From: Peptococcaceae bacterium
GTDB lineage: Bacteria; Bacillota; Peptococcia; DRI-13; UBA5745
Assembly: GCA_031265035.1 (NCBI GenBank)
Contig: JAISDE010000190.1
Span: 1 to 35,979 of the forward strand
Direction of reading: 5' to 3'
Length of the DNA stretch: 35,979 nt
Shown here: positions 11,515-35,979 of the stretch, piece by piece
Layout: each line of letters opens with the position of its first letter
Numbering within the stretch: position 1 is the first letter of the stretch
Position numbers and translations under genes: made by a program
The notes under the pieces: generated by a model
Databases searched by the model: none
The model's input: the letters and a program-made list of their open reading frames with translations, nothing else
What the model was told of the DNA's origin: nothing

Positions 11515-11960
11515 TGAAATAATTCCTCGGCCAGGGCCTCATAATTGGCGTCCAACTCCGCCCGATAAACTTCCCAGGCGGTTTTGTCCCAAATCTCCGC
11601 GTGGTCGCCGGCGCCCACCACATAAACGTCCTTGCGCAAGCCGGCGAAATTGCGCAGTTCCTGATTGATCATGGTTCTGCCTTGCCGGTCGGTCTCCCCG
11701 GCGCAGGCGCCGGAAAAAAAGCGCCGTTTGACATTTCGGGCCTTGGGGTTGAAAATAGGCAGGGCGTTCAGTTTTTCCGCCAGCTTGTCCCACTCCGCCT
11801 GGGGGTAAACGAAAAGGCAGGTTTCCATGCCCTTGGAAATCATATAACGCTCGCCCAGCGCTTCCCGATATTTGACCGGCAGGGTCAGCCGGCCTTTATC
11901 GTCGATGGTGTGCGGATACTCCCGATCAAAGGTGTACGCGCCCTCGCGATCAAGATCCAT
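11511..11960 (-). CDS. mraZ: Transcriptional regulator MraZ
   Basis: YPHTIDDKGRLTLPVKYREALGERYMISKGMETCLFVYP; second SpoVT/AbrB-like repeat ETDRQGRTMINQELRNFAGL. Likely ATG 11960 preceded by AAAGGGGG; the track ORF begins upstream at 12014. Confidence 0.92.
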   Translation of the reverse strand: MDLDREGAYTFDREYPHTIDDKGRLTLPVKYREALGERYMISKGMETCLFVYPQAEWDKLAEKLNALPIFNPKARNVKRRFFSGACAGETDRQGRTMINQELRNFAGLRKDVYVVGAGDHAEIWDKTAWEVYRAELDANYEALAEELFQ

Positions 11961-17631: not shown

Positions 17632-19044
17632 TTACTGAGCCAGCGCGATGCCCAGTTTTTCCGCTATTTCCTCGGCTCTCGCCAGGGAGGGGGAGGCGTC
17701 CCTCAGCACTAGGCGCCCGCCGCCCCGGTTTAGGGTATCCACCATACAGGTCATCTCGTCGGTCTCAATACTGATGATTTGGACGCCGTATTCTTTATTT
17801 TCCTTAATCTCTACGGCGATGCCCATCTCTTTGACCTTATCCGCGGCTTTGCCATACATCTCGTAATCGCCGGTATTGGCGCCAAAAACGGCGCCCATCA
17901 GGATGCCGGGGATATTGATGGCCCGACGGGCAAAGAGCTCGGGATAAAGCTCAACGGTAACTTTTTTGATGTTGCCTTTGGCCAGCTCATGGGCGATCCT
18001 GGCGGCATTGGTGGGAGAGCCTACCGCCTGGCTGGAACCGCCCACCACGGCGTCGCCGTAAGTCTGAAGTATGGGCTTGGTGCCGTTGGCCAGCTTTTTG
18101 GCGATCTCCTTGGCCTTACGTAAGGTCTCTTTGATCTGCTTGTTTTCCGCCGTCTTGACATCTTCGCTGATCAGGGATTCCACATTGGCTTTGCGTTTAA
18201 AGAAGGGCTCCATAAATTCCACCACCGCGGGCACCACGGCTTTGGCGGAAATCTTATGAACCTCGGCGGCCATAGCGATCATCACGTCTATAGGCACATT
18301 GACGGTCATATCCACCAGCATACAAAGGCGGGCGGCGTACATACCGATGAGAACGGCGCCGCCCACATGGGTGACGCAAAGAGCCGGCACCAGCACCCTG
18401 GGGGTGCAGGGATTGGCGATAGTGGGGGAAATAGCCAAAACCATAGCTTTTTCCATCTGCTCGGGGGTAGCGCCTCCCAGGGCCGCGGTAGCGGCGGCGA
18501 TACAGGCGGCGCCGGCGCCAAAGCCTTCCATATTGCAGCCAGTGCTGACCTTGCCTACCCTGAAGATGCCGCCGATTTTCAGGATCAGGGCGGCTATCTC
18601 GGCAATGACGACCTCGTCTATGCCCTCTGTCTGCATGGCTTTGACGAAGCCGGCGTAAGGGCAGGAGTCGCCGGTGCCGGCGCAGGGCCGCAGGCCGATG
18701 CAGTGATTGCCTACCTGAGCCGCCAGCGTATAGAGCAGGGCGTTGTCCAGGAAGGTGTCTTTAAAGCATTTGGCGCCTTTAATCTGATTTAATTGGGAGG
18801 CCACGGTGCCCAAAAGAATGCTCTCACCGTCTTTAAGGCCGATGTCCAGGGCTTTCAGGTTGTGGGCATATTCCTCCATGACTCTCGCGAGTATCTCCTC
18901 CCGGGGCAAATTGAGACGGAGCTCGCTTTCGATCAGAACTACGTCCACTGCCCGGGCATTATGATCGCTGGCCAAAGCCAGCGTCTCCCCAACGGTTAGG
19001 GGCATTTTTTCCTTGATTGCCTCTCTTAATGTCATTGACGCCAT
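17632..19044 (-). CDS. hmd: [4Fe-4S] serine dehydratase-like enzyme, predicted 2-(hydroxymethyl)glutarate dehydratase
   Basis: Serine dehydratase alpha-type motifs RPCAGTGDSCPYAG, STGCNMEGFGAGAACIAAA, NPCTPRVLVPA; position in the nicotinate cluster. Confidence 0.8.
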   Translation of the reverse strand: MASMTLREAIKEKMPLTVGETLALASDHNARAVDVVLIESELRLNLPREEILARVMEEYAHNLKALDIGLKDGESILLGTVASQLNQIKGAKCFKDTFLDNALLYTLAAQVGNHCIGLRPCAGTGDSCPYAGFVKAMQTEGIDEVVIAEIAALILKIGGIFRVGKVSTGCNMEGFGAGAACIAAATAALGGATPEQMEKAMVLAISPTIANPCTPRVLVPALCVTHVGGAVLIGMYAARLCMLVDMTVNVPIDVMIAMAAEVHKISAKAVVPAVVEFMEPFFKRKANVESLISEDVKTAENKQIKETLRKAKEIAKKLANGTKPILQTYGDAVVGGSSQAVGSPTNAARIAHELAKGNIKKVTVELYPELFARRAINIPGILMGAVFGANTGDYEMYGKAADKVKEMGIAVEIKENKEYGVQIISIETDEMTCMVDTLNRGGGRLVLRDASPSLARAEEIAEKLGIALAQ

Positions 19045-19097
19045 ATGATCATCCCTTTCCTCAGGCCGGGGCCCGCGCGTGTTTTGCCGCTGTCGCC

Positions 19098-19967
19098 TTA
19101 CGCCCTGTTGGCGTATTTAGTCTCGATTTCCCGAATCCGGGGCAAGCCGATCAGGTCGTTGAATTGAGGGAAGGGAATCATCCGGTCTATCATGGAGGCG
19201 GTGGTGCCGTCCCTCTTGAGGCCCTCCATCAGATCAATCATGGCTTTAGTGGTGACATAAGTGGAAGCTGTGGGATAGATGACCAGATCATAGCCCAAAG
19301 CCGCTAATTTATGATTGGGCAGGAGGGGCGTGCGGCCGCCCTCCACCATGTTGGCCAAGGTATAAACGGTGATAACCTCATTGATTTTTTTCATTTCTTC
19401 CTCGGATTCGGGCGACTCGATGAAAATAATATCGGCGCCGGCTTCCTGGTAAGCCGCGCCTCGCTCCAGGGCTTCCTCGATGCCATGGACGGTTCGGGCG
19501 TCGGTTCGGGCCATGATCATGAAATCAGGGTCGATTCTGGTATCCGCGGCGGCCTTGATTTTGCCGACCATCTCTTCCTTGGTTATTACCTGGCGGCCTG
19601 TCATATGGCCGCATTTTTTGGGCATCACTTGATCCTCCAATTGGATGACGGCGACGCCGGCCTTCTCGTATTCCCGCACGGCGCGGATGACATTGACAGC
19701 GTTGCCAAAGCCGGTGTCGGCGTCGGCCACGACGGGTACGCCGGAGGCCTCCACAAAAGCGTTGGCCCGGGCCACCATTTCGGACATCGTCATCAAGCCG
19801 ACGTCGGGATCGCCTAGGTGGCTGGCGGATTGACCGTAACCTGTCATATAAACGGCGTCAAAGCCTGTCTTGCCGATGATTTTGGCTGTAAGGGCGTCAT
19901 GAGCGCCGGGAGCGACGATGAGCTTGCCAGATTGAAATAGGTGTTTTAGTTTTTTTCTGCTGTTCAT
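19098..19967 (-). CDS. dml: 2,3-dimethylmalate lyase (isocitrate lyase/PEP mutase superfamily)
   Basis: PGAHDALTAKIIGKTGFDAVYMTGYGQSASHLGDPD, VVADADTGFGN, QLEDQVMPKKCGHM; ATG 19967 with AGAGGA upstream. Confidence 0.88.
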   Translation of the reverse strand: MNSRKKLKHLFQSGKLIVAPGAHDALTAKIIGKTGFDAVYMTGYGQSASHLGDPDVGLMTMSEMVARANAFVEASGVPVVADADTGFGNAVNVIRAVREYEKAGVAVIQLEDQVMPKKCGHMTGRQVITKEEMVGKIKAAADTRIDPDFMIMARTDARTVHGIEEALERGAAYQEAGADIIFIESPESEEEMKKINEVITVYTLANMVEGGRTPLLPNHKLAALGYDLVIYPTASTYVTTKAMIDLMEGLKRDGTTASMIDRMIPFPQFNDLIGLPRIREIETKYANRA

Positions 19968-20005
19968 GTTCCGGAATCCTCTCTTCAGTTTATTATCCAA
20001 CAGAT

Positions 20006-20045
20006 CCTTATGTAATTTTTCAGGTTCTTATGTAATTTTTCAAGA
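20006..20045. repeat. 20-bp tandem duplication (YCTTATGTAATTTTTCARGW) at the 3' end of the MutL-like gene
   Basis: ccttatgtaatttttca (20006-20022) and tcttatgtaatttttca (20026-20042). Confidence 0.9.
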
Positions 20046-21489
20046 AGGAAAGCGCTGAATCGGGAAAATGGCGGGATAAAACTCCCAGGGCGTATAGCAA
20101 ATAATGATCGTCGAAGTGAAAACGGGGATTGACTGGCAATAATGAAATGCCCGGATCCGCCAAAGCTCTCGTCATGATTTCCTGTTTTTCCGCGGTTTTT
20201 GTATGGTAGAAAATGCCGCCCACAGCGAGAACATGCTTTACTGAACGGAGATCCCGGCCTACGGGAGTGCCGGCCGCCAGACCCAAAACGGGGTCGGCCT
20301 CTTTGGCGAAATGGCCGGCGTGGCGGCGCAGAGCCACGGCGACGGCGGAAAGGGCCAGGGCTTTGTCCATAGCCCATTCCCGCTGGTTGGCCGGGATAGA
20401 GGAAGGCTCTTTTTCCATTCTGCGGGTATAGTCCACAACTTCTTCCGGTGTCGCCGGCGGTTCCCGGAGACCCATATCCCTGATTATGGACAAAGGGCCT
20501 ACCGCCTCCGGGATGCCGGTGGCGCTGACTCTGAGGCCCAGGTTGCCTTCCACGGTTCGGTAGGAAAACTGCTTCTCGTTGTTGATCACCAAGCCCCGTT
20601 CTTCCGGCTTCAAATTCTCCAGCTCCGGCAGGGCGGAATGGATATCCGTGGTGGCGCCGCCAATGTCCGCGAGAATCAGGCCGCCGATGCCTTCCTGCTC
20701 ATAAGTGCCTTTGGCTAGCAGCTCGCTGGCTAAAAGAACGGCCCCCGGCGTAGGCATTACGGTTTTGTCCGCCAGCATGGCTTGCAGCCGATCCAGGCCC
20801 TTTGCCTTCGTAATCTGTTTAATGAATTGAGTATGAATGGCTTCTCTGGCCGGCTTGATGTTCAGCTCATGGATGGTAGGCATGATGTTTGGCACCCTGA
20901 CATAGGGGATGCCCGCCGCGTCAAAACGGGCGGCTACCCGGGCTTGGGCGTCTTTGTTGCAGGCTACCACTACCATAGCCTTGCTTTTGATCCGGATAAT
21001 GATCTCGGCATTTTCCAGAACCGATTCCCGGTCGCCGCCGTCGGTGCCGCCGGCCAGCAAAATGATATCCGGCCGGATTTCCCGTAGCGCCTCCTCCCGG
21101 TATGCTAAAGGCTCATCGTAGGAAATTACCTCCATTACCCGGGCGCCGGCGGTCATGGCCACTTCCTTGGCGGCTTTGGCGGTAACCCGGGGCATATAGC
21201 CTAAGGCTACCATCCTGAGGCCCCCCGCGGCGCTGCAAGTGGCGTAGCGCCGTAGATCGGCGCCTAAGCCGACTCCCTGACCGGCTATAGACTGCCGGGC
21301 ATTTTCCGCCCCTAGAAGCACATCCTCCAAGGTGGTAGGGGATTGGCCCCGGGCTAGAAAAAGCAGGCTGCCCGACTCCTCCAGGCGAAAAGCCGTCGCC
21401 TTGGTATAGGTGCTGCCAACATCATAAACAAGCAGATTAGCTTCCTTTACGGTCGGGGCTTTGGGCGCGCTCACGGAATCAAGCTCCAT
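20020..21489 (-). CDS. MutL/GlmL-family protein, putative reactivase of a B12-dependent mutase
   Basis: LLVYDVGSTYTKATAF, LLAGGTDGG, ILADIGGATTDIHSA (ASKHA-fold ATPase motifs); adjacent to mii and mgm. Confidence 0.82.
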   Translation of the reverse strand: MELDSVSAPKAPTVKEANLLVYDVGSTYTKATAFRLEESGSLLFLARGQSPTTLEDVLLGAENARQSIAGQGVGLGADLRRYATCSAAGGLRMVALGYMPRVTAKAAKEVAMTAGARVMEVISYDEPLAYREEALREIRPDIILLAGGTDGGDRESVLENAEIIIRIKSKAMVVVACNKDAQARVAARFDAAGIPYVRVPNIMPTIHELNIKPAREAIHTQFIKQITKAKGLDRLQAMLADKTVMPTPGAVLLASELLAKGTYEQEGIGGLILADIGGATTDIHSALPELENLKPEERGLVINNEKQFSYRTVEGNLGLRVSATGIPEAVGPLSIIRDMGLREPPATPEEVVDYTRRMEKEPSSIPANQREWAMDKALALSAVAVALRRHAGHFAKEADPVLGLAAGTPVGRDLRSVKHVLAVGGIFYHTKTAEKQEIMTRALADPGISLLPVNPRFHFDDHYLLYALGVLSRHFPDSALSFLKNYIRT

Positions 21490-22630
21490 AAATCTTGCCG
21501 GTCTCGACAAAGGCATAGCCTTCCATCAAGCGGCGGGCGGTACGTTCGATGCTGGCCTTCAACACTTCGCCGTCTTTGACGGCGGCGCTTACAGGAATGA
21601 CGCCGGCGGGATGACCGATGCGCACCGTCTCGATGCTGTCGATATGGGGTATACACTGGTTGACGATGGTGCCGGGGATTTTGGCGGCGGCGCCGGTACA
21701 AGCGGTACCGGTACCAGGGTAAGTTTTGTGGAGTACCTGCATAAACATCATGCGGGAGACGAAATCCACTTGGCTTTTCTTGATCGCGCTGCCGGTGGTA
21801 AAGTCCACATAGTCGGCAGCTTCCGCAACAAAAGCGATCATGGGGAAAGCGGGGGAGAGCTTGGTGGCTTCTTCCGGGGTCTTGGCTTTGCCGATAATGA
21901 CGGCGCATTTTGCCCGGATTTCCTCCAGATAGGCCAGAAGATCTTTATTGCCGTTGATCTCCGTAGGATTTTCCGTACCCTTCATGCCGACGTCTTTCGC
22001 CCGGACAAATAGGCACGGGTTGGAGAGATCCACTATGGATACCTCGATGGGCCCCCTGCCGGTTTCCACGATATCTATCGGACTGCCGGTAGGAAGCAGC
22101 TTGCCGGTGGAAGAACCGGCGGTGGCGGCGAAATTCATCAGAATGGGAGCGGCAGTACCGGGAACACCGTCGATTTTGCAATCGCCTTTGACCGCGGATT
22201 TGCCGTCTTTTACCTGAACCTCGGCCACCAGGATCTTGCCGGTATTGGTATTGTGAACGCGGACGGTGGTTACAGGCTCCGCGGCCCGGACGATGGATTC
22301 GTCGATAGCGAAGGGGCCTACGGCGGAAGAAATATTGCCGCAGTTGCCGCTGTAATCGATGACGGTATCGTTGATGCTGACTTGGCCAAAGGTGTAGTCC
22401 ACGTCGGCGTCGGGACGGCTGGGCGGGCCGATAATGGCCAGTTTGCTGGTCAGGGGGTCGGCGCCGGCTAAGCCGTCGATTTGACGGACGTCGGGACTGC
22501 CGAAAATAGCCAGAATGATTTTGTCCCGTATGGATTTGTCGGCGGGCAGATCATTCTCTTTCAGGAAAACAGCTTTGCTGGTGCCGCCTCGCATGAGGAC
22601 GCAAGGAACGCGGAAAATGTCGGATCGCAT
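21479..22630 (-). CDS. mii: 3-methylitaconate Delta-isomerase (PrpF family)
   Basis: FRVPCVLMRGGTSKAVFLKENDLP, DYSGNCGNISSAVGPFAID; ATG 22630 preceded by AAGGAG; directly downstream of mgm. Confidence 0.88.
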   Translation of the reverse strand: MRSDIFRVPCVLMRGGTSKAVFLKENDLPADKSIRDKIILAIFGSPDVRQIDGLAGADPLTSKLAIIGPPSRPDADVDYTFGQVSINDTVIDYSGNCGNISSAVGPFAIDESIVRAAEPVTTVRVHNTNTGKILVAEVQVKDGKSAVKGDCKIDGVPGTAAPILMNFAATAGSSTGKLLPTGSPIDIVETGRGPIEVSIVDLSNPCLFVRAKDVGMKGTENPTEINGNKDLLAYLEEIRAKCAVIIGKAKTPEEATKLSPAFPMIAFVAEAADYVDFTTGSAIKKSQVDFVSRMMFMQVLHKTYPGTGTACTGAAAKIPGTIVNQCIPHIDSIETVRIGHPAGVIPVSAAVKDGEVLKASIERTARRLMEGYAFVETGKIYGA

Positions 22631-22662
22631 ATGGATCAACTCCTTAATCTTATCTTGCTTTC

Positions 22663-24510
22663 TTATCTAGCTTTTTGAGCCAGCAATAGGGCTTCCGTTT
22701 CCCGAATGATCTGATCGGTGTCAGTGCCGGGGCCGTAGAAGGCGTCCACACCCAAAAAGCCGATGCCCTCTTTGGCGATTTTCTCCTCATACATAGCGTG
22801 TTCCTCCTCTTTTTCGGCGATCCGGCCGCCGGCTATGATCAAGGTCTTATCCCGACGCCCCAACTCTTTCAGACGCTGGCCTACCCGGGGAAAGAGGGTT
22901 TGCGCCATGCCCAGCAGGTTGTTGATCCCCACGATCTCGGCGTTGGCCTCGGCCGCTACTTCCGCCACAGTTTCCGGCAGGTTCATGCCCCGCAGGTAAA
23001 TAATGTTGAAGCCGGCCCTCTGGTAAGCTTCCCTTACCAGGTTGATGCCCTGGACGTGAGCGTCGGCGCCCACGGTGCCCAGGACAATAGTCTCCGGCCT
23101 GCTGGCCTTGGCTTCCGGCTCCGCGGTGATATTGTCGATGGAAACCGCTACTCGCGCCGGATCGACGCCCAAGGGGGTGAAGCCTCCAATATAGCGGGTA
23201 ATGCCGTCATGGTCCCGGTGAACCTTGACGTGGCGTTTTAAGTCCCAGCCGCCTGCCCGCTGGCAGTCGAAGACGCCGCTTTTGCCGGCTTCCACGGCTT
23301 TGTCGATCAGATCCTCATCGTTCCATTGCCGCCAAAATTCCGGGGTGATCAGGTCGGGAGTCAGGTTTTTTACACCTAAAGCGGCTTCCAGCACCGCCAT
23401 AGCCTCGCCGAGGATCTCTTTTTTCCTGGCGTCGACGACAGGGGACTCGATGGGCTGGGTATAAATGCCGTCAAAGACATCGCGGGTGGCCCAGATGGAT
23501 TGGCCCATGGAGTCGCCGGTGGGGATGCCCACAGATTCCGCCGCTTTGGGCCGGTAGAAGTGCGCGCCGCCCAGCTTGGCGTTGACGGCCATACGGGCGA
23601 AATGGGCGGATTCGGCGATCAGGTTGGGGGGCGGATTCTGGAAGGTTTCCGGCACGACGATCAGGGATTTGCTCCACATGTTTTCTTTGAAAGCCCGCAT
23701 GACAGCCAAGTCGGCATAGATATTGACGCCGGCGATGTTCATTTGGATGGCGGAAAGCTCCGCCGGCAAGCCGGCGTGAATGGCCAGGCCCTCGGCCATC
23801 AGGCACATGGCCAGGGCCATGCCGTCGGTGCCGCCGATGTTATTTAAATGCTTGTGGGAGTCAAGCTGGACGAAGATATTATTATCGGCGCAGACCTGCA
23901 GAGCCTTATAGCCGTTGACCACCTTGGTTTTGTAGTCGTGAATGCCCCGGCCGCCGAAATGGACGTGGATCACGGGGCCGATATCGGTGCCGTCAAAACC
24001 GGCGATCAAAGCGTTGATGATGGAAAGGTGGGGGGTATCGCCGGTGGCGTTAATCCGCACAGGATGCTTGGCGCCGCCGCCCATTTGGATATAATCCCGC
24101 TCCCCCTTGGGGGTGATGCCGCCTTTGCCCCGGGATTGCTCGATGAGCTCCCGGCCTTTCAAAGGGTCGATATGGCGGGTGGCCTCGGAGTGAACAAAAT
24201 GGAACAGGGTCTCGTCAAATTTTTCGGCGTAAGCGTACATGTTCTGGGACTCTTTCCAGGTCTCCTCACCGGTGTTGCGGCCTAAAATGGGATTTTGCGC
24301 GGGCCAGCCCCGTTTTTCCGCCAATTGGGCCAACTCGTAAATACGGTAGCCGCTACGGGCTACCCCCGCTACCTCCCGGGGATAAGGGGCCGGCAGGCCT
24401 ATGACCTCACCCTTTTCGTCCAGATCCGGCATTTCCACATGGAAAGTGTCGGCATAGGCCCGGACGACCTCAATATCCTCTTTGATGATACGTTTGGTTT
24501 TTTCTTGCAT
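22663..24510 (-). CDS. mgm: 2-methyleneglutarate mutase (coenzyme B12-dependent)
   Basis: 615 aa; C-terminal B12-binding signature [12 protein letters not shown]...GINNLLG; N-terminal mutase barrel; neighbours mii, dmdAB, dml. Confidence 0.9.
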
Positions 24511-24525
24511 GGCCTGTCTCCTTAA

Positions 24526-25017
24526 TCAAGAAATCCCTAATTCTGCCCGCACCCGGGGAATTAAGCCGCCGTAATCCAAGGTTTTTAAAATATTCTCCGA
24601 TAAGGGCTTGAACGCTAGCTGTCCTTGGGGATAACGGATCAGGCCCTTTACCATATCAACCTCAATTATATCACCGTCCCTCAGCGCGCCGGCGATATCG
24701 GCGGCGTACACCGGCAAGCCGATATTGATGGCGTTACGGCGGAAGATCCTGGCAAAGCCGGCGGCGGTCACCAGGCTAATACCGGCCATCTTTAAGGCGA
24801 TGGGCGCTTGCTCCCGGGAAGAACCGCAGCCGAAATTGCGGCCTGCCACAATGATATCTCCCGGCGTTACCCGATTGAGGAAGTCCAGGCCGGGCGCCCC
24901 TGCCATGGCATATTTTCCCAACTGGTCAAAAGGCTCGGCCATCGCGTAACCTGGCAGTATCTGATCCGTATCCACGTCGTCCCCCAGAACAAAGACCCGT
25001 CCTTTTATTACTTCCAT
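24526..25017 (-). CDS. dmdB: 2,3-dimethylmalate dehydratase small subunit (aconitase/LeuD-like)
   Basis: KGRVFVLGDDVDTDQILPGYAM, IIVAGRNFGCGSSREQAPIALK. Confidence 0.88.
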   Translation of the reverse strand: MEVIKGRVFVLGDDVDTDQILPGYAMAEPFDQLGKYAMAGAPGLDFLNRVTPGDIIVAGRNFGCGSSREQAPIALKMAGISLVTAAGFARIFRRNAINIGLPVYAADIAGALRDGDIIEVDMVKGLIRYPQGQLAFKPLSENILKTLDYGGLIPRVRAELGIS

Positions 25018-25070
25018 TCGCTTGTCTCTCCTCATCGCGTCGGCGCGCGGCTTTTCTTTATTTGCATAAT

Positions 25071-26267
25071 TTACAGAGTACCCGGCGCCGTGATCTTGCC
25101 GGTAATCGCGCTGGCGGCGGCTGTGGCCGGTGAGGCCAAGTAGATCCGGCCTTTATTGGCCCCCATGCGCCCGGGAAAATTACGGTTGGTGGTAGCTACC
25201 ACCACGTCCCGGTCGCTGATGATGCCTTCGTGAGCGCCAAAGCAGGGGCCGCAGCCGGGATTCAGCACCGTGGCGCCAGCGTCCCGGATGATTTTGCACC
25301 AGCCTTTTTCCTCCATGGTGTTTAGCGTCTCCCGGGAGGCGGGCACCACCAACGTATTGACGTCCGGGTGAACCTGACGGCCTTTGAGAGTTAAGGCCGC
25401 CTGCTCCATATCATTGACCCGGCCGTTGGTGCAGCTGCCTATTACCACTTGAGTGATGGGCAGGCCGGCCACTGCCTCCACATCGCAGACGTTAGCGGGG
25501 GAAAAGGGCCGGGCGATTTTGGGATTGATGGAGGATAAGTCGATTTCCCGGGTCTCTTCCACTTCCGTCTCTCTATCCGCCGCGCCAAATAAAGTGATCA
25601 TGCCGCCCAACTCCGTGCCCATGTTGCAGACCGTCATCCGCTCCGCTACGGAAAAGCATTGAATACCGGGCCCGGTAATCAGAAGGCCTTTATCCGTTAA
25701 GTAATCGGTGCCAAAAATTTCACCAAGGTAAAGAATGAAATCTTTGCCGAATACGTTTTCTTTCAATTTTCCGGTAAGATAAATTTGCGTCACCGCCGGT
25801 ACTTCCAGATCCAAACGGCCCGTGGCCATGGCGGCGGCCGCCTCGGTGGAGCCTACGCCGACGCCTATAGCGCCGTAACCGCCGCAGGTGCAGGTATGAG
25901 AATCGGCGATGACCACCAGCTCCCCGGGCGCTGCCCGGTGCTTTTCATACATCAACTGGTGGATGACACCCTCGCCTCTCTTGTAAATGGTAATACCGAA
26001 TTCCCGGGCAAAGTCGTCCATGATCCAAAGGCTGTCCCGGGCTTTCTCGGTGGCGGCGGGGTAGATATGATCGACAAACAAAAGAACGCGCTCAGGATCG
26101 AATACCCGATCAACGCCTATTTCCCTAAATTGTTTGATGGCGATAGGAGCGGTCACATCATGGGCCGCCACATAGCTAACCTTGCAGCTGACGTCCATTC
26201 CGGCGCTTACCCTATCCAATCCCGCGGCTTTGGCCAAGTGGGTCTCGATCAGGTTCATGGTTGACAC
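25071..26267 (-). CDS. dmdA: 2,3-dimethylmalate dehydratase large subunit (aconitase/LeuC-like)
   Basis: DSHTCTCGGYGAIGVGVGSTE, GSCTNGRVNDMEQA, NPGCGPCFGAHEG, TTNRNFPGRMG. Confidence 0.88.
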   Translation of the reverse strand: MSTMNLIETHLAKAAGLDRVSAGMDVSCKVSYVAAHDVTAPIAIKQFREIGVDRVFDPERVLLFVDHIYPAATEKARDSLWIMDDFAREFGITIYKRGEGVIHQLMYEKHRAAPGELVVIADSHTCTCGGYGAIGVGVGSTEAAAAMATGRLDLEVPAVTQIYLTGKLKENVFGKDFILYLGEIFGTDYLTDKGLLITGPGIQCFSVAERMTVCNMGTELGGMITLFGAADRETEVEETREIDLSSINPKIARPFSPANVCDVEAVAGLPITQVVIGSCTNGRVNDMEQAALTLKGRQVHPDVNTLVVPASRETLNTMEEKGWCKIIRDAGATVLNPGCGPCFGAHEGIISDRDVVVATTNRNFPGRMGANKGRIYLASPATAAASAITGKITAPGTL

Positions 26268-26413: not shown

Positions 26414-27499
26414 TTAGCAGTCAATTTTGTAATCGCCCGGTTTGATAATACCTTGCTTGCGCATGAATTCGGAGGTCAGCCAGGCCACTACCGCCGGAAT
26501 CACGATGGCTATGAGGAGAAGGCCCAGCCAATCGAAAGCGGTGGCCGCTATCGCCATCTCGCCGGCGCTGAGGGCGGCTTCCGAGGGAGTGACCCAACCG
26601 GTGATGACACCTATAGGGCCTACCATACCGGAGGTGCCCATGCCGGTGGAAATGGGAGGGCCATTCTGCCTCAGCTTGAAAATCACGGTGGCGACAGGCC
26701 CATTGACGACCGAGGCGACCACAGCCGGTATCCAGAGTACAGGCTTGCTCATCAGGTTGGGCACCTGCAGCATAGAGGTGCCAAGGCCCTGGGCCATCAA
26801 ACCGCCGATCTTGTTTTCCCTATAGGAAGCCACAGCGAAGCCTACCATATGAGCGCAGCAGCCGGCTACGCCGGCGCCGCCGGCCAGGCCTACCAGGCCT
26901 AAGGAAGCCGCTACAGCGGCGGAGCTGATGGGCAGGGTAAGCACGATACCTAAAATAGCGGAAACCAGAATGCCCATCACAAAGGGTTGCATCTCCGTCG
27001 CCCACATAATGGCGTAACCGGTGGCCGCGGCCACTTTGCCGATCGGCGGCGCCAATATCACGGACGCGATAACGCCAACGCAGATGGTAACAAAGGGTGT
27101 GGCGATCAGGTCTATGGGCGTGGTTTTAGAAATTAGCTTGCCGGCGAAGACGGCGATCAGAGCGATAAAGAATACGGCTAAAGGCCCGCCGGCGCCGCCT
27201 AAGGAGTTGGCGGCTTGGCCTACGGCCACCAGGGAATAAAGCACGAAGGGCGGCGCCTTCAAGGCGTAGCCGATGGATACGGCCATAGCCGCTCCGGTGC
27301 CGGCGGTGGCATAGCCGCCGATCTGATTCAGGAAAGGACTGTTGAGGGTATTACCCAGGGTATTAATGATAGTACCAATCAATAAGGACGCGAAAAGCCC
27401 ATGAGCCATAGCGCCAAGGGCGCCGATACCTATTCTGTTCCAGGTGATCTCAATCCCTTGCTTTTTCATGAAAGCGGAAAAGGATTTAGGTTCTGACAT
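26414..27499 (-). CDS. PTS EIIC-like (PTS_EIIC_2 type) multi-spanning membrane protein, putative transporter
   Basis: Polytopic, Gly-rich: MSEPKSFSAFMKKQGIEITWNRIGIGALGAMAHGLFASLLIGTIINTLG...; ATG 27499 preceded by GAGGAGG; no EIIA/EIIB seen. Confidence 0.7.
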   Translation of the reverse strand: MSEPKSFSAFMKKQGIEITWNRIGIGALGAMAHGLFASLLIGTIINTLGNTLNSPFLNQIGGYATAGTGAAMAVSIGYALKAPPFVLYSLVAVGQAANSLGGAGGPLAVFFIALIAVFAGKLISKTTPIDLIATPFVTICVGVIASVILAPPIGKVAAATGYAIMWATEMQPFVMGILVSAILGIVLTLPISSAAVAASLGLVGLAGGAGVAGCCAHMVGFAVASYRENKIGGLMAQGLGTSMLQVPNLMSKPVLWIPAVVASVVNGPVATVIFKLRQNGPPISTGMGTSGMVGPIGVITGWVTPSEAALSAGEMAIAATAFDWLGLLLIAIVIPAVVAWLTSEFMRKQGIIKPGDYKIDC

Positions 27500-27658
27500 A
27501 GGGGATCCTCCTCTCAGTGATCTATTAAAATTAATATGCTCTATGGGTATGAAGGAACCGCGCGACCCCCCTTCTGTTTTTATTGCTCCTGAGGGCTCTA
27601 TCACCGGGTTTCCTGGCCATAGGCGACACGATCCCGCGATCAGGCGGGCGCGACCGTA

Positions 27659-29902
27659 TCAGCTGAGGATTTTTTTCATTACCTCCGCGGGCGTCAGCGG
27701 CAACTCAAAGAACCGCCGGCCCAAAGCGTTTTCCACAGCGTTGGTGATGGCCGGGATACCCGGTATCAAAGCAGGCTCGCCGACGCCTTTGGCGCCGAAG
27801 GGACCGGCCTCTCCAGGACATTCCACGATAATGGGATAAATTTCCGGTACATCCATGGTGGTAGGAATAAGGTATTTGGAGAAGACAGGGTTTTTGATTT
27901 TACCCTTCTCATGCTCGATCTTCTCAAAGATAACGAAGCCTTGAGCCATAACCATGCCGCCCTCGATCTGGCCTTCCACCATAACCCTGTCTATCGCCTG
28001 GCCTACATCGTGGGCGGAAACCAGCTTCAGAGTGTCCACCTCACCGGTGGAGGTATCCACTTCCACTAAAGCTATGGTCACCCCGTAGGAGTAGACCTCA
28101 TAAGGGATACCGGCCATAGTTTTGGCGTCCAGATAGGTGGTTTTGGGGTTGTAAGCGCCGGCGCCTACCGCCAGCTGGCCCCATTTTTTCATTTCCGCCA
28201 TCAACTCGGCATAAGTCATTTTGATGGCTGGATCTTTGGCGCTATAGATCATCCTGCCCCGGAAGATCAAGTATTCCTTGGGAACTTTGAGGAAATTGGC
28301 GGCCGTCTGAGCTAAAGTCTCCTTGGCCTGCCGGCAGGCGATCCTGGTGGCGTTGCCGGAAATAAAGGTCTGGCGGCTGGCGGAGGACGCCCCGCCCTCC
28401 GGCGTCACCATAGTGTCGGCGGCGGTGACGTGAATATCGTCATAGGAAAGTCCCAGTTCTTCGGCGGCGATCAGGGCCATGACGGTAGATGAGCCCTGAC
28501 CGATATCGGCGCAGCCTACCATCAGGTTGACGGAAGCGTCGGGCAATACCTCCACAAAGGCGGCGGCTGGATTGGGCAGGCCGGTGTTGCCCACGCCGTA
28601 CCACATGCAGCCTACACCGACACCTTGATTTTCCTTGACGGTGGTTATAACCTCCGCCGCTTTTTCCTTAGCCGCTCTCAAAGCCCCTATGAAGCCTACG
28701 GACTCATCCAGCGTCTGGCCGGTGGCCAGTACCGTGCCGGGCTTTTGGGCATTGAGAATACGCAAGTCGATGGGATCCATATTGAGGGCTTTAGCCAAAG
28801 CGTTCATCTGGCCTTCATGACATACGGAGACTTGGGGTACGCCAAAGCCGCGGAAAGCGCCGGCCATGGGGTTGTTGGTATAAACGAAATCCGAGTCTAC
28901 CCGGACGTTGGGCACGTCGTAAGGACCCATGCAGTGGACGACGGCTCTGGTGATCACCGCCGGCCCGTAGGAGGCGTAAGCGCCGGTATCGCCGATGATG
29001 AAGACTTCTACCGCTAAAAGCTTGCCATCCTTGGTGGCGCCGGTTTTCGCTCTCATGATCATGGGATGGCGCTTGGCGGAAACGTCGGTGGACTCTTGGC
29101 GGCTTCGGACAATTTTTACCGGTCGGCCCGTGGCGTTGGCCAAAAGGGCCAGATGACACTGAACGGAAATATCCAGCTTGCCGCCGAAGCCGCCGCCTGT
29201 GGCCATCTGCGTTACCCGAACTTTATTGTTGGGCAGGCCCATGGTCCTGGCTACTTCCCCCCGGTCAAAATGGGCGTTTTGGGTAGAGGCGTAAACGGTG
29301 ATGATCCCATCCTCAACCCGGGCCACGCCGGCGTCCGGCTCGATAAACATATGGGTAAGCATATTGGTGGTATAGGTGCCCTCAATGATAACGTCACATC
29401 GCGCGAAAGCCGCGTCCACATCGCCGCGTTCCAAATGCTTGCGAGCGTGGAGGTTGCTGTCGCCGTGGATTTTTGGGCTGCCTTCCCGCATAGCGTCCTC
29501 ATAAGTGAAAACGGGCTCAAGCAGATCGTACTCCACTTCCATCAATTCCAGGGCTTCCTCCGCCAATTCCGGCGTCTCGGCGGCCACCAGCGCTATAGCG
29601 TCGCCTACCCGCCGGACTTTATCATCCACTAGCACAGGCTCATCCTTCATGATGATTCCGATGCGGTTGCCGCCGGGTATATCCTTGGATGTCAGTACGC
29701 GAGCCACGCCGGGCAGGGCCAGGGCCTTGGAGGCGTCGAAGCGCTTGATGACGGCGTGAGGTACCGAGCTACGGAAAACACCGCCGTACAGCATATGATC
29801 AAATTTCAAGTCGGCGGCAAATTTTGTCTCGCCGATAACTTTATTATAGGCGTCCTTTTTGATATTGCTTTTACCAAGGATCGCCAGATCTCGTAATGCC
29901 AT
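27659..29902 (-). CDS. Nicotinate dehydrogenase molybdopterin subunit, one-piece (NdhL + NdhM equivalent)
   Basis: 747 aa xanthine dehydrogenase-family Mo subunit: [51 protein letters not shown] (conserved Glu). Confidence 0.9.
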
Positions 29903-29926
29903 ATAGTTTTCGCCCTCCTTCGCTCC

Positions 29927-30391
29927 TTAATTTCCCGCGGCCATATCCACGGCCCTGAATATTTTAGTGTAGCCGGTGCAGCGGCAGAGATTGCCGGAAA
30001 GAGCCCGCCTGATCTCCTCGCGAGTGGGATGGGGATTTCGCAGCAACAGGGCTTTAGCCGACAAGATCATGCCCGGCGTACAATAACCGCATTGCACGGC
30101 GCCGGCTTCCAGGAAGGCGGCCTGCAATTTATCCAGCTCGCCATCCTTGGCTAAGCCCTCCAGTGTCAGGATACTGTCGCCCTCAATCTGGCCCGCCAGC
30201 ATCAGGCAAGAAGTAACGGGAATATCGTTCACCAAAATAGTGCAGGCGCCGCATTCCCCCTCGCCGCAGCCTTCCTTGACGCTGGTGCACTCGCAATCCT
30301 CCCGCAAAAGGTCTACTACCCGTTTGTTGGGATAAGTTTCCGCCGTTACCGGCGCCCCGTTTAGCGTAAAGTTAATTTTTATTTTATCCAT
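29927..30391 (-). CDS. ndhS: Nicotinate dehydrogenase small subunit (2 x [2Fe-2S])
   Basis: CTSVKEGCGEGECGACTILVND, QCGYCTPGMILSAKALL, GNLCRCTGY. Confidence 0.92.
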   Translation of the reverse strand: MDKIKINFTLNGAPVTAETYPNKRVVDLLREDCECTSVKEGCGEGECGACTILVNDIPVTSCLMLAGQIEGDSILTLEGLAKDGELDKLQAAFLEAGAVQCGYCTPGMILSAKALLLRNPHPTREEIRRALSGNLCRCTGYTKIFRAVDMAAGN

Positions 30392-30393
30392 AG

Positions 30394-31275
30394 TTAGCAT
30401 CCGCCTTCCCCCAGGCCAAAATCCACCAGAATCCGGCCGAAGGTTTTGTCGGAAACGCCTTTAACCCCTTCTCTTTTGTAGGGCATGGAAGCTCTGGTGG
30501 GAATCATGCTTCCAACGATATCCGACAACATGCCGGCGCAAGGCGCGAAAGTATTTTTGCTTACGGGCTTGCCGATCAGGTACTCCTCAACTTTTGGCAA
30601 ACGGGCAGGCTTGGGCGATACGCCGCCGACAACCACCTGAGCCCTGGTAATGCTGTCGGAGTCGTCTTTCTCAACCAATATAGACAAACCGACGACGACG
30701 ATAACCAGAGCCTTTCTTTTGCCCAGCTTCATGGTGGCCGTGGCCACGCCTTTGGCGGGGGCGTCGAAATAGATTTCCGTCAACAACTCGTCGCCGGCAA
30801 TCCGGGTTTTTTTGCGGTCGGCGTAAAAGTCCGTCAACTTCATTTCCCGTTTGCCGGCTTTGCTTCGCAGCACCACGGAAGCGTCCAGGGCCATGAGGGT
30901 AGTTGGGCTGTCGCCGGCTACGGAGCAATTGACCACATTGCCGCCGATGGTGCCCAGATTGCGGATCTGAGGCGAGCCTACATGGGCGCAGCAGGAATGT
31001 AGGCCTTTGACCTTGTCTTTGATGTAAGGATTATTTTCCAAATCGCTGAAGGTGGTCAAGGCGCCGATCCTTACTTGGCCTGCCGCCACTTCGCAGTAAC
31101 GAAGCTCTTTGATTTTATTGATGCTGATTACGCAGTCCGTATTCCTGCGCCGCTCTTTTAGCTCAATGACTATATCGGTTCCGCCGGCGGCCACTGTGGC
31201 GCTCCCCTTATACTGAGCCAGCAACTCCAGCGCCTCCGCGAGGGTTTTGGGTGTATAAAAATTAAATGCTCTCAT
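30394..31275 (-). CDS. ndhF: Nicotinate dehydrogenase FAD subunit
   Basis: FNFYTPKTLAEALELLAQYKGSATVAAGGTDIVIELK, HVGSPQIRNLGTIGGNVVN. Confidence 0.92.
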   Translation of the reverse strand: MRAFNFYTPKTLAEALELLAQYKGSATVAAGGTDIVIELKERRRNTDCVISINKIKELRYCEVAAGQVRIGALTTFSDLENNPYIKDKVKGLHSCCAHVGSPQIRNLGTIGGNVVNCSVAGDSPTTLMALDASVVLRSKAGKREMKLTDFYADRKKTRIAGDELLTEIYFDAPAKGVATATMKLGKRKALVIVVVGLSILVEKDDSDSITRAQVVVGGVSPKPARLPKVEEYLIGKPVSKNTFAPCAGMLSDIVGSMIPTRASMPYKREGVKGVSDKTFGRILVDFGLGEGGC

Positions 31276-31358: not shown

Positions 31359-32249
31359 TTAGCTATTCTTGATCTTTATGCCGGCTAGGTCTTCCCAAAC
31401 TTTGACTACAGCCGAAATATCCTGTCGGTTGAATCCTTTGGCCCGGGCCATCTCAAAAACCTGTGCCGCCGCGGCGGTCAAAGGCAGAGGCGCGGCCACA
31501 TCTTTGGCGGCGTCAAGCGCTAAACCAAGATCCTTGCGCTGCAGATCCACGGCAAAGCCCTTATCAAAGGCGTCGGCCATGATGAATTGGTCGAATTTAG
31601 CCTCCAGAGCGTAAGAGCGGCCGGAACTGACGCCGATCACTTCTTTCATGGTCTCCGCCCTCAGCCCCAGCCTGACGCCCAGGACAAGGGCTTCCGCCAA
31701 CGCCGCCATGCTGACGCCCAAAAGCAAATTGTTGACGATCTTAATGGCGTCGCCGGCGCCGGCTTCCCCAACATGATAAATATTTTTGCCTAATACCCTG
31801 AGAACATCCGAGACTTTTTCGTAAGTCGCCTCATCGCAGCCCACCATGATGGTAAGAGTTCCCGCCGCGGCGCCGGCCACGCCGCCGCTGACAGGCGCGT
31901 CCATATAGACGACGCCGTATCTCTCGGCGGCCTTGGCCATGGCCTTTGTGGAGGCGGGGGCCACGCTGCTCATGTCCATGATGATAGCGCCCGGCTGGCA
32001 GCTTTCCAGGACGCCGCCTTGGCCGGTCATTACCGTCTCGACAATTTTGGCGTTGGGCAATGAGGTGATGATCAAGTCGGCTTTAGCGGCCAACTCCCCG
32101 CCGCCGGCGCAGACTTTGGCGCCCAAGCTTCCCAGCTCTTTGACATTCGCCTCGGACAAATCGTGAACGTAAACCTCGTAGCCGGCGGATAAAAGATTTT
32201 TTGCCATAGGCTTCCCCATGGCGCCTACACCGATAAAACCGATTTTCAT
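31359..32249 (-). CDS. hgd: 2-(hydroxymethyl)glutarate dehydrogenase (3-hydroxyisobutyrate dehydrogenase-like)
   Basis: MKIGFIGVGAMGKPMAKNLLSAGYEVYVHD, DAPVSGGVAGAAAGTLTIMVG, KIVNNLLLG; cluster context. Confidence 0.88.
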   Translation of the reverse strand: MKIGFIGVGAMGKPMAKNLLSAGYEVYVHDLSEANVKELGSLGAKVCAGGGELAAKADLIITSLPNAKIVETVMTGQGGVLESCQPGAIIMDMSSVAPASTKAMAKAAERYGVVYMDAPVSGGVAGAAAGTLTIMVGCDEATYEKVSDVLRVLGKNIYHVGEAGAGDAIKIVNNLLLGVSMAALAEALVLGVRLGLRAETMKEVIGVSSGRSYALEAKFDQFIMADAFDKGFAVDLQRKDLGLALDAAKDVAAPLPLTAAAAQVFEMARAKGFNRQDISAVVKVWEDLAGIKIKNS

Positions 32250-32271
32250 AAGTACCAATCCTTTTTAGTTA

Positions 32272-32358: not shown

Positions 32359-32940
32359 TCAGCGTAAGCCGTCCTCGCCTTTGACCTCGCCGATTTGCAA
32401 GCCGCCGATTCTGGGATGGGGGCGGCCGCCGTCGGTGAAGGCCAGAGCCACTACGATCTCGTCGCATTTGGGAGCGTCGGCGACCCTGACTTCCATAGCG
32501 TCATAGTGCGTGCGGACAAAAGCGGCGTCTTTATAGTGCAAGGGTATGTCCAAGGCCGTACCGGCGGCGCCGGCTTTCTTGGCGGAGGGGATAATGGATT
32601 TGCCGCCGCCGATGGCGTCTCGCATGGGCTTGCCCAGCTTGGGATGCAAGATGGCGGCGCAATGCTCCAATTCTCCGCCCAAGCCGGTGATGGCGCCTTT
32701 GCCGTAGCTGTGTACCTTGCCCGCGCCCAGAATCTTTACGGCTTCTTTGGAGAGATAATCCCCCAGCCATTCGCCGATCTCGGTGAGCTCGGACAGATCC
32801 TCCCGATATTTGCCGGCGCAGGGATTTTTGATAACGGCGGCCACAGAGACCCGGCGCAGGGGTTTTTCCAGATCGGCAAAGCCCTCGTAACGGATTTCCT
32901 CAACACAGGCGACAATTTTTCTGATTTTAGGTTCCAACAT
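32359..32940 (-). CDS. Amino acid synthesis (AA_synth/DUF1185) family protein, function unknown
   Basis: IRKIVACVEEIRYEGFADLEKPLRRVSVAAVIKNPCAGKY, GKGAITGLGGELEHCAAILHPKLGKPMRDAIGGGKSIIPSAKKAG. Confidence 0.75.
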   Translation of the reverse strand: MLEPKIRKIVACVEEIRYEGFADLEKPLRRVSVAAVIKNPCAGKYREDLSELTEIGEWLGDYLSKEAVKILGAGKVHSYGKGAITGLGGELEHCAAILHPKLGKPMRDAIGGGKSIIPSAKKAGAAGTALDIPLHYKDAAFVRTHYDAMEVRVADAPKCDEIVVALAFTDGGRPHPRIGGLQIGEVKGEDGLR

Positions 32941-32967: not shown

Positions 32968-33849
32968 TTATTTGGCGGCAGGCATATTGACTTGAATAGT
33001 TTGATCCTGAACCCTGGCGATCATGGCCAGCAAATTGCCTTTACGCATTTGCCTGTATGCCTCTTGCTTTACCTGGGCCAAAGCCTGCCGCTCCTCCCGG
33101 CGGGTAAGCCGATCCACCGCCGCCACTATCTCTAAATCCCGGATATCGCTTTGGGGATCGAGAGCGCCGGCTTTGGCGGTCAGCACCCGGGGTGAGGGAA
33201 CATAGGTAGTATTGGCCAGATGAGTGGCCAGAGCGTCGGCTAAGACGCAGCGGGAAGAAAAAACGCTGACTCCCTGGGCGATGCCCCGGGTAAAGCTTCT
33301 GCCCCCCAAACCGCTGGTGGCCACACCGCCGACGCCGTCCTCGGCTTTGATGGCGACCACCAGATCCACCTGACCGGAAGCGAGGCTGGACAAGACCCCC
33401 AGGTTCAGCTTTTGGCCGGGCGCCAGCCGCAGGGCCACATCGCCGCCGTTGTTGACGGAAACCCGGTCAGCGCCCCGGGCAAAGAGCCAATCGGCCACCA
33501 GATCCGACATAGCGCCGGCGACGGCGGCCATGGGAGTCAGGGTAGGTTCCTCCGCGGCTAAAACAGCTTCCAGCATTTTGGCCGGCAAGCCCGTCAGAAA
33601 CCGCGAAGGAATCCGGCCGGGGTACAGCCGCAATAAATCAAGGGAGGCGGTGATCTCTCTCAGGCCCTCATCGACTATGTCAAAGGCTTGACAGCAAAGA
33701 TCCGTCAAGGGGCTGCCATCTTTATCGGCCATGATAACCATGGAGACGGGCCCATAGTCTATGTAAACCTTGCCGTCCTCCAACACCCGGCCGGGCGGCG
33801 GGGCCTGATCGGCGGGAAGCCGGTCGCGATTTATAATTTGACGCCGCAT
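32968..33849 (-). CDS. UPF0280 family protein (ApbE superfamily)
   Basis: AGAMSDLVADWLFARGADRVSVNNGGDVALRL and VFSSRCVLADALATHLA, resembling the ApbE NxGGD and ADALAT segments. Confidence 0.8.
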   Translation of the reverse strand: MRRQIINRDRLPADQAPPPGRVLEDGKVYIDYGPVSMVIMADKDGSPLTDLCCQAFDIVDEGLREITASLDLLRLYPGRIPSRFLTGLPAKMLEAVLAAEEPTLTPMAAVAGAMSDLVADWLFARGADRVSVNNGGDVALRLAPGQKLNLGVLSSLASGQVDLVVAIKAEDGVGGVATSGLGGRSFTRGIAQGVSVFSSRCVLADALATHLANTTYVPSPRVLTAKAGALDPQSDIRDLEIVAAVDRLTRREERQALAQVKQEAYRQMRKGNLLAMIARVQDQTIQVNMPAAK

Positions 33850-33879
33850 AATAAGCCTCCGCGAACCGATAAGCGATGG

Positions 33880-35376
33880 TCAAAGATCGCCTTTTAGGGT
33901 TTTAGCGTCCTTGACTTGATCCATATGGCCGCCGATATTCTCGTAATCCGATAGCCTCATGGTATACTCCACTGGCGCCACGGTAGCGGGGGTGGGTACC
34001 CAGCTGAAGCCGTTGGCCACTACCTGCTCGGTATCGATGATAAAGTTGATGCCGCCGCCAGGCAGAATAAAGGTGGGGGCGCCGCCGATGGTCAGCACGG
34101 CTTTGCCGGCGTGGACGGCTTGGGAGAGGGCCAGGGGTTTTTTGCAGACGCCGCCCCGGGCGCTGCCGCCGGTACCGCCGGTATACATCACCGAGCAGCG
34201 GGATTCCTCGCAGGCTTCATTGATGGCCTTGGGTACCCTCAGGGCCTTTTCCGTCATGGGAATAGATTTGACCTCACCGTCAGCGCCCAGCTCAAAGAGC
34301 TCATAAATCTCGCCGGTGGTGTTGAGTACCAGTATTTGTATGCCGGGCTTGGCCACAGACATATCCACACTTTTGATGGCGTCCCGGCAGCTCATCAGCG
34401 TAGTGCCGCCGATGCCGTCGCCATGCTCGCCAAAATAACGGCCGCGGGAACTCTTGACGGCGTTGGGCGTCACGCCGCTCCAGGAAAGCCCGATGGCGGC
34501 GCCGGCCAGATGCTCGGTGCATAAGCCGATGACATGATGGTCAATAACCAGGCATTCGTCTACGCATTCTTTCATCAGGTTGGCGAAAAGACCGACGGTG
34601 GCGCTGCCGCAGCCCAGCCGCATTTTCTTTTCCTGAACGCCGTTGATCACGGGGGCTTTCCCAGCCCGCATACGAATTTTATACTTTTTATCCACGGAAA
34701 CTTCCACTTCCTGGCCATTGGCCAACTCCACGATCGTCCGGGCTGTCATGAAGCCGCCGTCGCCGGTGAGCCGGTTGGCGCCGCCGATGGCGATCATTTT
34801 GGAGCCGTACTCCTCCGTATTGACCATGCCAATGACCTTGCCGTCCCGGTAGACTTTAGCGCCTTCCTCACCGATATAGCTGTTGGTGTCCAGCTTAACG
34901 ATAAGGCCGCTATAGCTCAAAGGCGCCTCCGTTACTACCGTGACCACGTCAGCGCCCCCTCGGCTTTCCCTGACGATATGGGGAGCGGGCAGGGAGCAGG
35001 GGTAGTTGGCGCCGCCGCCCACGGCGGTGATGATGGGCCGGCGAATATTTTCATCGGGGAATACCAAAGCCTTGGGTTCCAGGACATGCTCCCGGGTTCT
35101 TTCCAGTCTGCCGTTTTTATTGGCGTAACGCTTGCAGGCGCCGGTAGCGCCTTCCGGTACCCGGCATTGAATAGGGCAGTTGCCGCATATCGCGGCGGCA
35201 GCCGGTAATTCGTCGGTTTTAGCTAAAGCTTTGAAAGGGCAAGCCCGCAGACAAATACCGCATTGCGCGCAGCTGTCTTTGATTTTTAGGGTTTTGCCAT
35301 CTAAAGACAAAGCGTCCGTAGGGCAGTTTTTTACGCAAATACCGCAGCTTTTACAGTTTTCATTGACAATGATCAC
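33880..35376 (-). CDS. hnr: 6-hydroxynicotinate reductase
   Basis: N-terminal 2x[4Fe-4S] ferredoxin domain CKSCGICVKNCPTDAL/CAQCGICLRACPFKAL plus extra Cys cluster CGNCPIQC; 498 aa; next to ena and ndh genes. Confidence 0.88.
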   Translation of the reverse strand: MIIVNENCKSCGICVKNCPTDALSLDGKTLKIKDSCAQCGICLRACPFKALAKTDELPAAAAICGNCPIQCRVPEGATGACKRYANKNGRLERTREHVLEPKALVFPDENIRRPIITAVGGGANYPCSLPAPHIVRESRGGADVVTVVTEAPLSYSGLIVKLDTNSYIGEEGAKVYRDGKVIGMVNTEEYGSKMIAIGGANRLTGDGGFMTARTIVELANGQEVEVSVDKKYKIRMRAGKAPVINGVQEKKMRLGCGSATVGLFANLMKECVDECLVIDHHVIGLCTEHLAGAAIGLSWSGVTPNAVKSSRGRYFGEHGDGIGGTTLMSCRDAIKSVDMSVAKPGIQILVLNTTGEIYELFELGADGEVKSIPMTEKALRVPKAINEACEESRCSVMYTGGTGGSARGGVCKKPLALSQAVHAGKAVLTIGGAPTFILPGGGINFIIDTEQVVANGFSWVPTPATVAPVEYTMRLSDYENIGGHMDQVKDAKTLKGDL

Positions 35377-35446: not shown

Positions 35447-35979
35447 TTATAAAATTTTGGCCTGGCGGGTGGCGGGCGGCGTATTGCGGCTCTTGTTGAC
35501 CTTCACCGCGCCGTCGATGACGACGACGCTGACGCCGGGAATATCGCCGGCGGCGATGGCGCCCAAAGCGTCCCCGGCGACGGAGCCCAGGGGAGCGTCC
35601 ATGATCACCAGATCGGCCTCTTTACCCGGGGCGATAATACCGGTGTTCAGCCCATAGACCTTGGCGGTATTGCCGGTGGCCATGCAGATCGCCTGCTCGG
35701 GAGCGACGCCGGATATGGAAGCGATTTGGCAGATGTTTCGCAGAATGCCCAAAGGAATCAGGCCGGTGCCGGAAGGGGCGTCGTTGCCGAAAATGATCCG
35801 GGGGAGCATACCCTTTGCCTGAGCCCGGCGGGCTACATAATCCGCTACCTTGGGATTGCCGCACTGCACGATTTCCAGGGCGAATTCCGTCTCGTCCATG
35901 ATCCGGTCAACTTCCCGCTGGGAGATAGCGGTGGGCCCGCCGTTGATATGAGAGACCACATCGGGTTTTGTGGCGATGA
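35447..35979 (-). CDS. ena: Enamidase (amidohydrolase family), C-terminal part; N-terminus beyond right edge
   Basis: IATKPDVVSHINGGPTAISQREVDRIMDETEFALEIVQCGNPKVADYVARR...FGNDAPSGTGLIPLG...TGNTAKVYGLNTGIIAPGKEADLVIMDAP; frame open to the window end. Confidence 0.85.
   Translation of the reverse strand, partial: IATKPDVVSHINGGPTAISQREVDRIMDETEFALEIVQCGNPKVADYVARRAQAKGMLPRIIFGNDAPSGTGLIPLGILRNICQIASISGVAPEQAICMATGNTAKVYGLNTGIIAPGKEADLVIMDAPLGSVAGDALGAIAAGDIPGVSVVVIDGAVKVNKSRNTPPATRQAKIL

Follow-up and report, generated by a model that had tools for sequence, protein, structure and literature searches.

UPF0280, a protein of the ApbE superfamily, is an obligate partner of 6-hydroxynicotinate reductase and a candidate for attaching its flavin

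Background

The status of UPF0280 (COG2122) as an obligate partner of 6-hydroxynicotinate reductase (Hnr) is strongly supported by the present analysis of a 35,979 bp stretch of DNA (the window, by which we mean the whole stretch analyzed) and of related loci in other genomes and on plasmids. Because one small protein is tied to two enzymes that share no detectable homology, Hnr and DUF39, the simplest reading is that UPF0280 is an obligate maturation factor of Hnr, and we consider this highly probable. The best single mechanism for such a factor would be the installation of the covalent flavin on Hnr, to which we give an even chance.

The family is widespread, and its published context is confined to sulfur assimilation: COG2122 has been tied genetically to homocysteine synthesis together with DUF39 and a NIL/ferredoxin protein (PMC5764234). 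A preliminary description of the window had called UPF0280 an uncharacterized branch of its superfamily, which is only partly right, as it overlooks these genetic data. UPF0280 is mentioned in none of the literature that we searched, where a link between COG2122 and Hnr was likewise found nowhere, and a review of ApbE (PMC12052999) mentions neither UPF0280 nor hydroxynicotinate. A second, independent obligate partner with a reported covalent flavin narrows the possible functions of the family, and Hnr with and without UPF0280 makes a simple test system for them. Flavin attachment by UPF0280, if true, would give the ApbE superfamily a class whose active site differs, and homocysteine synthesis through DUF39 may then likewise depend on a flavoenzyme.

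The hnr locus

All genes described here lie on the minus strand of the window, apart from one membrane protein whose position only is given. The hnr gene (33880-35376; 498 aa, GTG start) is followed by the UPF0280/COG2122 gene (32968-33849; 293 aa, ATG start), which belongs to the ApbE superfamily and to an Hnr-linked clade; the preliminary description had correctly placed both open reading frames and their order. A gap of 30 bp separates the hnr stop from the UPF0280 start, and GGAGG can be read in the sequence about 8 nt 5' of the UPF0280 ATG. AA_synth (PF06684, formerly DUF1185; 32359-32940, Pfam E 2.3e-70) comes next and is the third gene of a conserved hnr - UPF0280 - AA_synth triad. Upstream of hnr, the 3' part of an amidohydrolase gene, an enamidase candidate, is truncated by the window end (35447-35977).

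On the other side of the triad, matches to domain and family models designate an hgd candidate of the 3-hydroxyisobutyrate / 2-hydroxymethylglutarate dehydrogenase type (31359-32258). It adjoins xanthine-dehydrogenase-type genes for nicotinate dehydrogenase (27659-31275), namely a molybdopterin subunit (27659-29902), a [2Fe-2S] subunit (29927-30400) and an FAD subunit (30394-31275), the last two assigned from sequence without a domain scan. The remaining genes of nicotinate-fermentation type (17632-26267) encode a serine-dehydratase-like protein (17632-19044; recognized by eye, with no Pfam match), a PEP_mutase/ICL-type lyase (19098-20000), a MutL-type protein (20020-21516), a PrpF-type isomerase (21479-22639), a B12-binding mutase (22663-24510) and an aconitase-type pair (24526-26267). 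Together these genes correspond to the nicotinate fermentation set of Eubacterium barkeri, a context that gives the Hnr assignment good support. Moreover, the window Hnr, which sits in this nicotinate catabolic cluster, is about 40% identical to 6-hydroxynicotinate reductases annotated in RefSeq. The cluster also holds a PTS_EIIC_2 (PF13303) membrane protein at 26414-27604, a candidate nicotinate transporter.

Co-occurrence and phylogeny of Hnr and UPF0280

The survey covered 398 genomes of the window's own phylum, among which Hnr was found in 15, UPF0280 in 147 and DUF39/HcyBio in 132. UPF0280 was present in every Hnr genome (15/15), in every DUF39 genome (132/132) and in 5 of the 256 genomes with neither. 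Among the 266 genomes that lack DUF39, it occurred in 10/10 with Hnr versus 5/256 without (Fisher p 7e-15). The window's own genome (85% complete) has no PF01837 (DUF39/HcyBio), and the partner of UPF0280 there is Hnr. By its coordinates, each of the 15 Hnr genomes has a UPF0280 immediately 3' of hnr and in the same orientation. UPF0280 is present twice where a genome encodes both Hnr and DUF39. Two copies are likewise found in genome G111, which has two hnr loci, the second pair being split by a dehydrogenase gene.

The association extends beyond this phylum. UPF0280 accompanies Hnr on 26 of 26 plasmid records, all Proteobacterial (25 detected by tblastn; the 26th by annotation, directly after hnr). 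In a Treponema bin UPF0280 instead precedes hnr, and an enamidase-type gene stands between the two; a spirochaete survey found Hnr solely in this bin. Viral contigs yielded neither Hnr nor DUF39, and one weak UPF0280 relative.

The plasmid of Hydrogenophaga sp. BPS33, the sole UPF0280 plasmid without a full Hnr, retains a C-terminal stub of Hnr (residues 468-488) just 5' of an intact UPF0280 gene, beside IS1071, and its hnr looks to have been cut off by IS1071. In genome G108 (C141, 16000-30000), where hnr is absent, a decayed Hnr-type UPF0280 (about 8008-8326 of locus L104) lies beside an intact AA_synth. Both hnr losses found have thus left relics, a stub before UPF0280 in the former and a decayed UPF0280 in the latter. 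Of the other orphans (G346, G074, G093 and G362) we inspected the first two: the UPF0280 of G346 is a lone copy of the DUF39 type, and that of G074, a genome 72% complete, lies near a methionine-synthase-like gene. As a separate observation, the BPS33 segment (L062) has IS1071 transposases on either side and recurs along the plasmid, with stubs at 1044-1106 and 11853-11915.

In a tree of the family, a branch with 100/100 support separates 28 Hnr-linked UPF0280 proteins from 15 DUF39-linked ones. Because the Hnr-linked rows, which come from three phyla (the window's phylum, the spirochaete bin and the Proteobacterial plasmids), form one fully supported clade, the association of Hnr with UPF0280 is probably old and has been kept across phyla. 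The co-occurrence survey suggested in the preliminary description, once run on genomes, plasmids and tree, therefore reveals an association far beyond chance; its view of UPF0280 as dedicated to Hnr is right for the Hnr-linked clade, while the wider family serves DUF39.

Relation of UPF0280 to ApbE

The window protein matches the NCBIfam UPF0280 model NF003322 with an E-value of 7.8e-57, under the strict equivalog cut-off of 290 bits, and scores 21.5 bits against the Pfam ApbE model PF02424, under the curated cut-off of 25.6, which two Hnr-linked relatives exceed. A 21-row profile of the UPF0280 family matched PDB 2o34 (DVU1097, the solved DUF375/UPF0280 structure) at E 1.6e-33. The UPF0280 profile also matched canonical ApbE from Hnr genomes over residues 109-211 (probability 95.6%, E 1.3e-8), and control profile comparisons of Hnr with ApbE and of DUF39 with ApbE gave no match. 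The earlier placement of UPF0280 in the ApbE superfamily thus reflects real homology. A weak AlphaFold2 model (4-row alignment, mean pLDDT 47), used solely as a weak fold check, had 2o34 and then ApbE as its Foldseek neighbors. We do not claim membership in ApbE proper, since neither the catalytic His nor the target motif was found. It has been reported that the homology of COG2122 to ApbE stops short of the ApbE flavin-binding region (PMC5764234).

The motifs NxGGD, TSG and ADALAT occur in UPF0280 in the order they have in ApbE. The window protein contains SVNNGGD at 131-137 (with N134-G-G-D137), T178-S179-G180 and ADALAT at 204-209 (A204-D205-A-L-A-T209). Across 41 UPF0280 sequences of both clades, G135, G136, D137, D205 and T209 are invariant, N134 is kept in 39 and S179 in 40. 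In every UPF0280 examined, a deletion of about 18 residues takes out the HHIxDP segment that bears the ApbE catalytic His, and the AKG of ApbE is VAG (Lys to Ala). The preliminary reading of these motifs, an NxGGD-like SVNNGGD and an ADALAT-like segment without HIIDP, was accurate and holds for all 41 sequences. The catalytic triad of V. cholerae ApbE consists of Ser241, His257 and Asp285 (PMC12052999); judged by alignment and residue spacing, S241 corresponds to S179, D285 to D205, and H257 to a deleted position. UPF0280 accordingly keeps two of the three triad residues and the Asp/Thr of the Mg site, the general base being gone. No conserved Cys was found in the Hnr-linked clade, and C177 is the only one in the bacterial DUF39-linked clade.

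The Hnr protein

The Hnr of the window comprises an N-terminal 2x[4Fe-4S] ferredoxin part (residues about 1-55), a CxxCPxxCx9C motif (C64, C67, C71 and C81) and, after this cluster motif, a core of about 400 residues that no Pfam domain covers. The enzyme of E. barkeri, the one species concerned, reportedly carries a covalent flavin, a finding attributed to Alhapel et al. 2006. The canonical flavinylation motif D-x-x-[S/T]-G-A-[S/T] has no match in 25 Hnr sequences. The nearest stretch, [DE]Gx[ST]GAC, is present in 10 of the 25 and ends in a conserved cluster cysteine; we considered the corresponding GATGAC stretch (Hnr 75-81) as a disguised ApbE motif and rejected it, as two of its positions, the first and the fourth, are variable and C81 is part of CxxCPxxCx9C. 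Invariant nucleophiles in the 25 sequences include T149, S154, T164, T354, C256, C389, Y125 and Y190. Proteobacterial Hnr proteins are without the N-terminal ferredoxin domain, keep CxxCPxxCx9C and the core, and are still accompanied by UPF0280, which therefore would serve the core or CxxCPxxCx9C and not the ferredoxin part.

A resemblance of the Hnr core to DUF39 seen by eye (PxxYxGxxxxxDxxxIG and TIG..GGGI) was discarded, the profile comparison being no better than with shuffled columns; an AlphaFold2 model of Hnr from a 4-row alignment (mean pLDDT 30) was discarded as well. Most DUF39 proteins (L052-L061, L106-L125) carry D-A-Y-[IL]-G-A-T, which deviates at one position from the ApbE flavinylation motif. 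As a flavinylation site this candidate was also rejected: among 29 readable sequences from genomes retaining UPF0280, 4 have N, A or G in place of the Thr.

ApbE, AA_synth and the origin of the flavin

Canonical ApbE is present in 10 of the 15 Hnr genomes, among them that of the window, and absent from the other five (G237, G279, G317, G371 and G390; four 99% and one 95% complete), in which the ApbE model picks up nothing but the hnr-linked UPF0280 genes. Provided that Hnr carries the flavin in every case, ApbE is thus dispensable for it and so is not its general flavinylating enzyme. The linked candidates that are left are UPF0280 and AA_synth, besides self-flavinylation. AA_synth was detected in 17 of the 398 genomes, namely the 15 Hnr genomes, G108 and G386, and its linkage to Hnr is as tight as that of UPF0280; of the two, only UPF0280 is homologous to a flavin transferase. 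AA_synth is absent from nearly all DUF39 genomes, and we know of no flavin link for it. Several Proteobacterial plasmids carry two AA_synth copies in tandem, and in genome G052 (L100) a transposase-like gene at 8289-9569 stands between UPF0280 and AA_synth, breaking the spacing of the triad and leaving its order intact.

Proposed function and alternatives

We propose that UPF0280 is a shortened ApbE-superfamily protein, located in the cytosol and dedicated to Hnr. It most likely would bind FAD and Mg2+, FAD being the presumed donor; the covalent flavin would go onto the Hnr core domain, and another residue would substitute for the catalytic His of ApbE. Flavin attachment, as already put forward in the preliminary description, is favored because of the co-occurrence, the ApbE homology, the retained Mg site and Ser (two of the three triad residues being kept), the reported covalent flavin and the lack of ApbE in a third of the Hnr genomes. 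Our confidence in it is held down because the segment with the catalytic His is deleted, Hnr lacks the canonical target motif, AA_synth is equally linked, and we know of no report of a flavin on DUF39. We also advance, as a tentative and somewhat doubtful generalization, that UPF0280/COG2122 is a second class of cofactor-attaching ApbE-superfamily enzyme without the HIIDP His, serving both Hnr and the DUF39 homocysteine synthase; DUF39 would then also be a covalent flavoprotein, and this reading would replace that of sulfur trafficking.

The family may instead act in maturation by some route other than attaching a flavin, as the wider family serves DUF39, for which sulfur trafficking has been proposed. 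UPF0280 could mature or assemble Hnr and DUF39 by, for example, Fe-S insertion or folding, its ApbE fold being a binding module without transferase activity. The loss of the catalytic His agrees with this, as do the obligate pairing with two enzyme families lacking detectable mutual homology and the use of iron-sulfur electron donors by both Hnr (ferredoxin, CxxCPxxC) and DUF39 (NIL/ferredoxin, PMC5764234). However, the near-perfect conservation in both clades of the Mg-site Asp/Thr, the Ser and NGGD points to retained nucleotide chemistry, and UPF0280 persists beside Proteobacterial Hnr without the ferredoxin domain; we hold this alternative to be rather unlikely. A role in sulfur or persulfide trafficking is very improbable, since no Cys is conserved in the Hnr-linked clade, C177 is the only such residue in the bacterial DUF39-linked clade, and no sulfur is inserted in nicotinate ring reduction. 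Such a role would suit the published genetics of the DUF39 partner (PMC5764234), the Methanosarcina protein MA1715, to which PMC12068725 refers as a sulfur trafficking protein, and the C-terminal Cys cluster of a methanogen COG2122 member (PMC9431491).

The flavin itself might reach Hnr without UPF0280, which would then be a catalytic or regulatory protein of the pathway, stably linked to it. Covalent flavins can indeed attach autocatalytically, as is common for 8-alpha linkages (PMC12052999), and AA_synth (in 15/15 Hnr genomes) or canonical ApbE (in 10/15) might do the work. The five Hnr genomes without ApbE count against the latter, and the rarity of AA_synth in DUF39 genomes, together with its want of a known flavin link, against the former. 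A mere pathway protein is also at odds with the fact that UPF0280 tracks Hnr or DUF39 and not one pathway, and, to our knowledge, all nine enzymes of the E. barkeri pathway were assigned without UPF0280. We judge this explanation unlikely.

Comparison with known systems

UPF0280 and ApbE (PF02424) share the homology over 109-211, the three motifs and a gene position next to that of a flavoprotein; apbE adjoins the nqr genes. Unlike ApbE, UPF0280 has lost the Lys of AKG and the segment of about 18 residues that holds HHIxDP with the catalytic His, and its target Hnr is without D-x-x-[S/T]-G-A-[S/T]. Most ApbEs are exported lipoproteins, whereas the UPF0280 protein of the window has no obvious export signal. 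The cytosolic ApbE of Klebsiella pneumoniae, which flavinylates a soluble fumarate reductase, shows that a flavin transferase can work in the cytosol and be dedicated to a soluble reductase (PMC12052999); that enzyme, however, is a canonical ApbE with a canonical target motif.

With the UPF0280/COG2122 proteins MA1715, DvMF_0044 and DVU1097 (2o34), the window protein shares the invariant residues, the profile match to 2o34 and the obligate partnership with an anaerobic reductive enzyme. For these three, the partners are DUF39 and NIL/ferredoxin and the pathway is homocysteine synthesis, whereas the window protein pairs with Hnr, falls in a separate, fully supported clade, has N- and C-terminal parts of its own and lacks a conserved Cys.

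Further Hnr-like genes

At several Proteobacterial plasmid loci (L063-L073), a ferredoxin-NADP reductase gene lies close to the hnr homologue, which suggests a different electron donor for these homologues and possibly a different substrate. A second, divergent Hnr-like gene, with 38% identity to the window Hnr over the core, lies at 7639-9420 in genome G368 (L102, contig C22). It adjoins two amidohydrolase-type genes and a permease gene and is without a UPF0280 of its own; the sole UPF0280 of this genome is at the main hnr locus.
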